Positions 37,706-38,403 of a DNA stretch of 38,566 bases are shown here, one piece after another. The notes under the pieces were generated by a model. The model had not been told where the DNA came from, ran no database searches, and worked only from the letters and a program-made list of their open reading frames with translations. The first letter of the stretch is position 1. Every line of letters starts with the position of its first letter. Position numbers and translations under genes: made by a program. This DNA comes from Alphaproteobacteria bacterium. Its GTDB lineage: Bacteria; Pseudomonadota; Alphaproteobacteria; UBA9655. The stretch covers positions 1 through 38,566 of the forward strand of contig JAIEOZ010000190.1 of NCBI GenBank assembly GCA_019750035.1. The letters are read 5' to 3'.

Positions 37706-38284
37706 TTATTTTTGTGCATTCAATTTGGTTTGAACTTCTTGATAGACGGGGTCAAGGTCCTTAACAAGGTCAAAATGGATAGGGCTTTTTCTGAAATACT
37801 CGATTGAATCTTGAATAATTAATCCTAAAGTTTCTTCAAAGCTGGCATTAGGATGTTCTCTTATAACTGTTCTAGAGGTTCCCCAAACAAGAGGTTGCTC
37901 TCTAAATTTTTTGATAACTGGATATTGGGCTTGCAACTCATCAAGTTTTCTTTCAAATTTTTGACGGTGCACGACCATATCAGCTTTTCTATACACAGGA
38001 TCCATACCTTCAACTAGATCAGAATAGAGGCTATAAGTCTTTATGAAATGCTGGATAGATTTATCAATAGTTAATTTTAGAGCTTCTTCGAAGCTAGCAT
38101 TAGGATGTTCTTTTATAACTGTTCTAGAGGTTCCCCAAACAAAAGGTTGCTCTCTAAATTTTTTGATAATTGGGTGGCGGACTTCCCAAGTATTAAGACC
38201 GACTTCAAATTCTTGGTGGAGATTAGCTTTAAGAGAACTTCCGACCATTAAACTCATTATAAATAGGGTGGCAATTTTTTTCAT
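37706..38284 (-). CDS. Secreted protein of two 84-residue repeats, unrecognised family
   Basis: I do not recognise this protein. A signal peptide (about 1-20, KKIATLFIMSLMVGSSLKA) precedes two tandem units with an 84-residue period. Each begins near P.IKKFREQP.VWGTSRTVI and runs on to EHPNASFEE, then a helix and a D-P-V-Y motif (DPVYRK and DPVYQE). I chose the ATG at 38284, the second of two adjacent ATGs, because it lies seven bases after AAGGAG. The core of the two units differs at only about three of 77 bases, so it looks recently duplicated or homogenised. It ends at a good terminator. Function unknown. Confidence 0.75.
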   Translation of the reverse strand: MKKIATLFIMSLMVGSSLKANLHQEFEVGLNTWEVRHPIIKKFREQPFVWGTSRTVIKEHPNASFEEALKLTIDKSIQHFIKTYSLYSDLVEGMDPVYRKADMVVHRQKFERKLDELQAQYPVIKKFREQPLVWGTSRTVIREHPNASFEETLGLIIQDSIEYFRKSPIHFDLVKDLDPVYQEVQTKLNAQK

Positions 38285-38403
38285 CATATAACTCCTTGTT
38301 ACCATCAAAGTGTCTAATAATGAATATAATTTATAATTGCAAATAAAATAATTTTAATAAAATTTAATTAAAATTTTAGTAATAATGGTTCGCTATATGC
38401 GTA

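Follow-up and report, generated by a model that had tools for sequence, protein, structure and literature searches.

Probable gene conversion between the two units of a secreted-type protein gene in an alphaproteobacterium

Repeats within one protein can be made alike again after they have diverged, and Persi, Wolf and Koonin (2016; PMC5120217) describe such homogenization, or concerted evolution, as relatively rare. Between bacterial paralogues, ectopic gene conversion is well known, for instance in the rRNA operons of E. coli (PMC8022953) and in M. tuberculosis (PMC12046097, PMC13061034). Here we describe a gene encoding a protein of two units that share a core of nearly identical DNA, found in a window of 38,566 nucleotides, by which we mean the whole stretch of DNA analyzed, taken from a 327-contig draft assembly. 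We consider that the core most likely became near-identical by gene conversion from the first unit, R1, into the second, R2, in the lineage of the window, a reading to which we give a probability of roughly 0.8.

The features of the gene, which is single-copy in its own genome, are collected in Table 1. A second ATG at 38284, the one chosen in the original prediction, is as plausible a start as that at 38287 and gives 192 rather than 193 residues; the stop codon occupies 37706-37708 on the minus strand, and ahead of the gene an AAGGAG resembling a ribosome-binding site is visible by eye at 38297-38292. The protein begins with lysines, a hydrophobic run and SLKA preceding the mature part, without a lipobox cysteine (as judged by eye), and this signal-peptide-like N terminus is also conserved in the orthologue discussed below. 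The protein with its putative signal peptide is probably Sec-exported. Two repeats of 84 residues had been predicted; there are indeed two units, but they measure 84 (R1) and 83 (R2) codons and differ by a one-codon indel. The convergent neighbor, a tadG-like gene, closes a Tad-pilus region in which Tad, VWA and TadE domains were recognized.

Table 1. Positions of the two-unit gene, its parts and adjoining features in the window.
Feature	Position	Strand	Remark
Two-unit protein gene	37706..38287	minus	ATG at 38287; 193 codons plus stop
Signal-peptide-like N terminus	38225..38287	minus	MMKKIATLFIMSLMVGSSLKA; by eye
Unit R1	37958..38209	minus	residues 27-110
Unit R2	37709..37957	minus	residues 111-193
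Terminator-like stem-loop	37660..37684	minus	between the two-unit gene and the convergent tadG-like gene; also present in G006
Donor copy of the tract, in R1	38084..38169	minus	best segment; the originally predicted core, 38097-38173, lies mostly inside
Recipient copy of the tract, in R2	37832..37917	minus	R2-specific sequence on either side
16-nt R1 stretch identical to the unconverted R2 of G006	38158..38173	minus	overlaps the 5' edge of the tract; longest identity between R1 and the R2 of G006

Two observations concern the DNA upstream of the gene. The contig end (38547-38564) falls inside a dispersed repeat, the 18-mer GGGAATGACACCCGTCGG, which has 36 matches in the genome at two or fewer mismatches (0 for the backward control) and is also present upstream of the two-unit gene in G006. 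The stretch 38314-38381 is A+T-rich and has, by eye, a TTGCAA-17-TATTAG arrangement; it matches DNA just upstream of single-unit relatives of the gene in genomes G004 and G010, and also DNA upstream of other genes whose products, among them a subtilase and a Cys-rich protein, have a signal-peptide-like start. These matches possibly reflect a common promoter type, with chance matches between A+T-rich stretches as an alternative. A regulon of secreted proteins, at which the region had hinted, was set aside, as to the eye the sites look like an ordinary TTGCAA-type promoter plus A+T tracts.

The near-identity of the cores amid diverged units was correctly predicted: 37845-37921 and 38097-38173 differ at three of 77 bases (37860, 37891 and 37918), and the best segment shared by the units, the tract of Table 1, is identical at 82 of 86 positions, where the units as a whole agree at 174 of 246. 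Codon shuffling never reached such a segment (0/20,000, p = 5e-5), and a repeat finder also picked out these two copies (176 nt, 80%, spacing 252). Could the assembler simply have pasted the R1 core into R2? The genome is a draft, and the tract is shorter than the usual short read. A pasted copy would be identical, however, and the copies differ at four of the 86 tract positions; moreover, two R2 tract codons (GCC and ACT) match the R1 of the orthologue and not the R1 of the same gene. We regard an artefact as very improbable.

Most weight falls on comparison with the one other two-unit gene in what was searched, that of G006, a genome of the same genus. There the gene order is M16 peptidase, two-unit gene, convergent tadG; the upstream DNA is 93% identical to that of the window over 102 nt and the two-unit proteins share 64% identity, and from synteny and these identities together we take the genes to be orthologous. 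The cores of R1 and R2 agree at 80 of 84 positions in the window and at only 45 of 84 in G006; between the genomes, the R1 cores agree at 76 of 84 and the R2 cores at 47 of 84. Where R2 follows either R1 or the R2 of the orthologue, it follows R1 at 34 sites to 1 in the core, and at 20 to 42 in the flanks (Fisher p 6e-11). Orthologue-type sites outnumber conversion-type sites by 8 to 0 in the 5' flank and by 24 to 2 in the 3' flank, and a quartet of the flanks favors the orthologue topology by 51 lnL. R2 is thus a mosaic, and this supports gene conversion, one of the causes originally put forward.

Measurement of synonymous change inside and outside the core, which had also been proposed, gave a concordant picture from few sites, the core holding only about 17 synonymous ones. 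Between R1 and R2 the synonymous p-distance is 0.12 in the core, 0.35 in the 5' flank and 0.64 in the 3' flank, and between R2 and the R2 of the orthologue it is 0.59, 0.06 and 0.41, respectively. Silent sites in the core have therefore been homogenized as replacement sites have, few though they are.

The other two causes first suggested, recent duplication and selection on the core, were not supported by this comparison. As to recent duplication, G006 has the second unit as well, and its units are not equally alike; the two units predate the split from G006, and the flanks hold 32 orthologue-type against 2 conversion-type sites. Selection could in principle keep the cores alike, for example as a shared binding surface, with no transfer of DNA, and the R1 core is fairly conserved across species, as its 76 of 84 identities indicate. 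Selection alone would, however, predict alike cores in G006, where they are not, and the synonymous sites of the core are alike too; furthermore, the R2 core of the orthologue is not conserved, differing from R2 at 0.59 of synonymous and 0.41 of non-synonymous sites. Nor does a core that merely evolves more slowly account for the data. The flank tree scaled to the core with only the overall rate free fits badly (lnL -282.5, vs. -245.6 with free branches), and of 2000 cores simulated under it, with a nucleotide model without codon structure, none reached the observed 80 of 84, the maximum being 75. We consequently think it very improbable that selection alone explains the cores. Homologues with cores no more similar than their flanks had been named in advance as grounds for refutation. 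G006 is such a homologue, yet, given the conserved synteny, its cores date the event to one lineage and do not refute conversion.

Did the change occur in the window's lineage, or in that of G006? If the ancestral cores were alike, then the R2 core of G006 was later replaced or evolved very fast, and that core does form a long branch (0.74-0.78 substitutions per site); given a branch of that length, the core quartet is compatible with the orthologue topology too. Against this, the R2 core of G006 is the one that resembles the six single-unit relatives described below. A profile of these six gives it 15.4 bits, and 8.0 to R1, 6.6 to R2 and 5.3 to the R1 of G006, although over the whole unit the R2 of G006 scores lowest (41.6, vs. 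57.5 for R1, 49.6 for R2 and 53.2 for the R1 of G006). Its excess of core over flank has permutation p values of 0.0087 against R1, 0.028 against R2 and 0.0098 against the R1 of G006. One core position is F in all six single-unit relatives and in the R2 of G006, and V in every R1-type core. In addition, no second family member that might have donated a core was found in G006. A change in G006 therefore seems unlikely to us, and the sequences argue with moderate force that the R2 core of G006 is the older form and R2 the recipient. The force is moderate rather than strong because polarity on the core alone is not significant, with a bootstrap P of 0.12.

R1 and R2 differ at 4 of 84 core positions and the R1 of the two genomes at 8 of 84, with a silent distance of 0.12 for both pairs, which would place the conversion near or after the split of the window and G006. 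All three core quartet topologies stay in the confidence set, which leaves the branching among the R1-type cores ambiguous and the timing relative to the split only loosely fixed; the GCC and ACT codons that R2 has in common with the R1 of G006, and not with its own R1, add to this.

How might such a mosaic have formed? We envisage that the unit was duplicated before the split from G006 and that the units diverged to about half DNA identity; in the window's lineage, a stretch of some 80-86 bp would then have been copied non-reciprocally from R1 onto its counterpart in R2. The copy would have taken the place of the R2 core, to which predicted helices 2 and 3 and the linker that follows them correspond, while the sequence on either side stayed R2-type. 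A strand exchange or template switch probably started in the 16-bp identity of R1 and R2 at the 5' edge: R1 and the unconverted R2 of G006 share only two identical runs of at least 7 bases, of which the longer, at 16 bases, lies at that edge, and the other edge has no comparable run. The molecular route may have been RecA conversion, template switching or two unequal crossovers. The last of these, in which three units formed and one was then lost, yields the same R2-R1-R2 mosaic and cannot be told from conversion by sequence, and unit number does vary, with single- and two-unit forms both in the order. It needs two events and an intermediate, though, and none of the 8 genomes, out of 17, in which a homologue occurs showed a three-unit form. 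We thus hold crossovers to be unlikely, if the least unlikely of the alternatives, and prefer conversion.

Those eight of the 17 genomes surveyed in the order, the window's own included, divide into two with the two-unit form (its own and G006) and six with a single-unit form (G003, G004, G005, G010, G015 and G016), in a count that leaves out one weak second row of G010. Like the window protein, the single-unit relatives (L003, L006, L007, L013, L014 and L015) have a signal-peptide-like start and a unit with the conserved pattern, consensus EFE, YPIIKK and LDPVYRD; they differ in having one unit and other neighbors, at 23-32% identity to the window protein. In G016 the gene is followed, in a different frame, by a second, incomplete copy of the unit's C-terminal portion (L007, 1871-2107 and 1492-1941), a further partial tandem duplication in the family. 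At class level, four of 385 genomes match the family profile at E 0.01, and three of these hold true family members; in the fourth, L026, the similarity is weak and limited to the signal-peptide part. Other candidates were rejected: L012 is antisense to a lysyl-tRNA-synthetase-like ORF and L018 lies inside a tRNA-dihydrouridine-synthase-like ORF (both named by eye), and L009-L011, L021 and L022 were dropped as weak matches (E 0.12-0.57). The GTDB species genome scan, with patterns drawn from the N terminus only, gave one locus, in JAGONT010000001.1, which matches G006. Searches among viral contigs, plasmids and phages found no relatives.

Within the genus, 8 of 15 genomes have the tadG-like gene, and the two-unit gene adjoins it in two of the eight; the other six have a different gene in the downstream stretch read, which in G009 is only about 300 bases. 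In G014 (L032, 3201-4450) the tadG-like gene directly abuts a convergent peptidase gene, called M16-type by its likeness to that of G006, for which the domains were shown. The site thus appears empty, its borders being the two genes that stand on either side of the two-unit gene in G006, and this suggests that the two-unit gene came or went as one piece.

That the protein belongs to no recognized family, as originally predicted, holds for Pfam (best 14.4 bits, cut-off 31.7) and NCBIfam (best 14.8 bits, cut-off 175), where all matches were below the curated cut-offs, for PHROGs (best E 0.22, not significant) and for PDB sequences, where neither the protein nor the family profile found anything better than E 0.5; unnamed relatives, however, exist. 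In a scan of eight family members at E 0.1, one of them hit Peptidase_C9 (E 0.00097), and four further families drew weaker hits, each from a single member. A separate protein in G001 (L049, 836-1465), with a signal-peptide-like start by eye, shows a weak likeness to F-box (E 0.0098) that falls short of the curated cut-off; such a match would be unusual in a free-living bacterium.

An AlphaFold2 model of the two-unit protein, built with eight relatives, is confident and all-helical (mean pLDDT 86.7, pTM 0.74) and places the converted tract in helices 40-45 and 48-60 of R1 (124-129 and 132-144 of R2) together with the linker after them. The model of a single-unit relative has the same helix order at lower confidence (pLDDT 71.9). 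With the two-unit model, Foldseek gave no E under 3.8 and the best Z was 5.7; the best Z for the single-unit model was 4.8. Fold searches of the PDB and of viral models yielded nothing usable, and their weak rows indicate neither kinship nor its absence. The protein may be a periplasmic or extracellular helical binding or scaffold protein. One doubtful reading is that helices 2 and 3 form a functional surface patch and that the conversion of this patch alone was kept since two matching surfaces, as in a bivalent binder, were favored; if it were true, intragenic conversion would have switched a secreted protein with two sites from two specificities to one.

We conclude that this gene offers a clean, small case of probable conversion within a single bacterial gene whose units had only about half their sequence in common, with one tract edge in a 16-bp identity, in an unnamed family that has no match in the libraries searched and, as far as searched, is confined to one order and hardly found beyond. 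A more general lesson is that a near-identical repeat core can mimic recent duplication or selection, and that one orthologue settles the cause. The kind of event is known, and this gene is a new example of it. Homogenization as Persi et al. define it (PMC5120217) is what the core of the window protein displays; compared with the cases treated there, the window protein has just two units, with only one segment homogenized and flanks that keep their orthologue-type relations. As in the cases from E. coli (PMC8022953) and M. tuberculosis (PMC12046097, PMC13061034), the proposed copying is non-reciprocal and between paralogous stretches of one genome; unlike them, it would have taken place within one short gene, between units about half identical, and over less than 100 bp.
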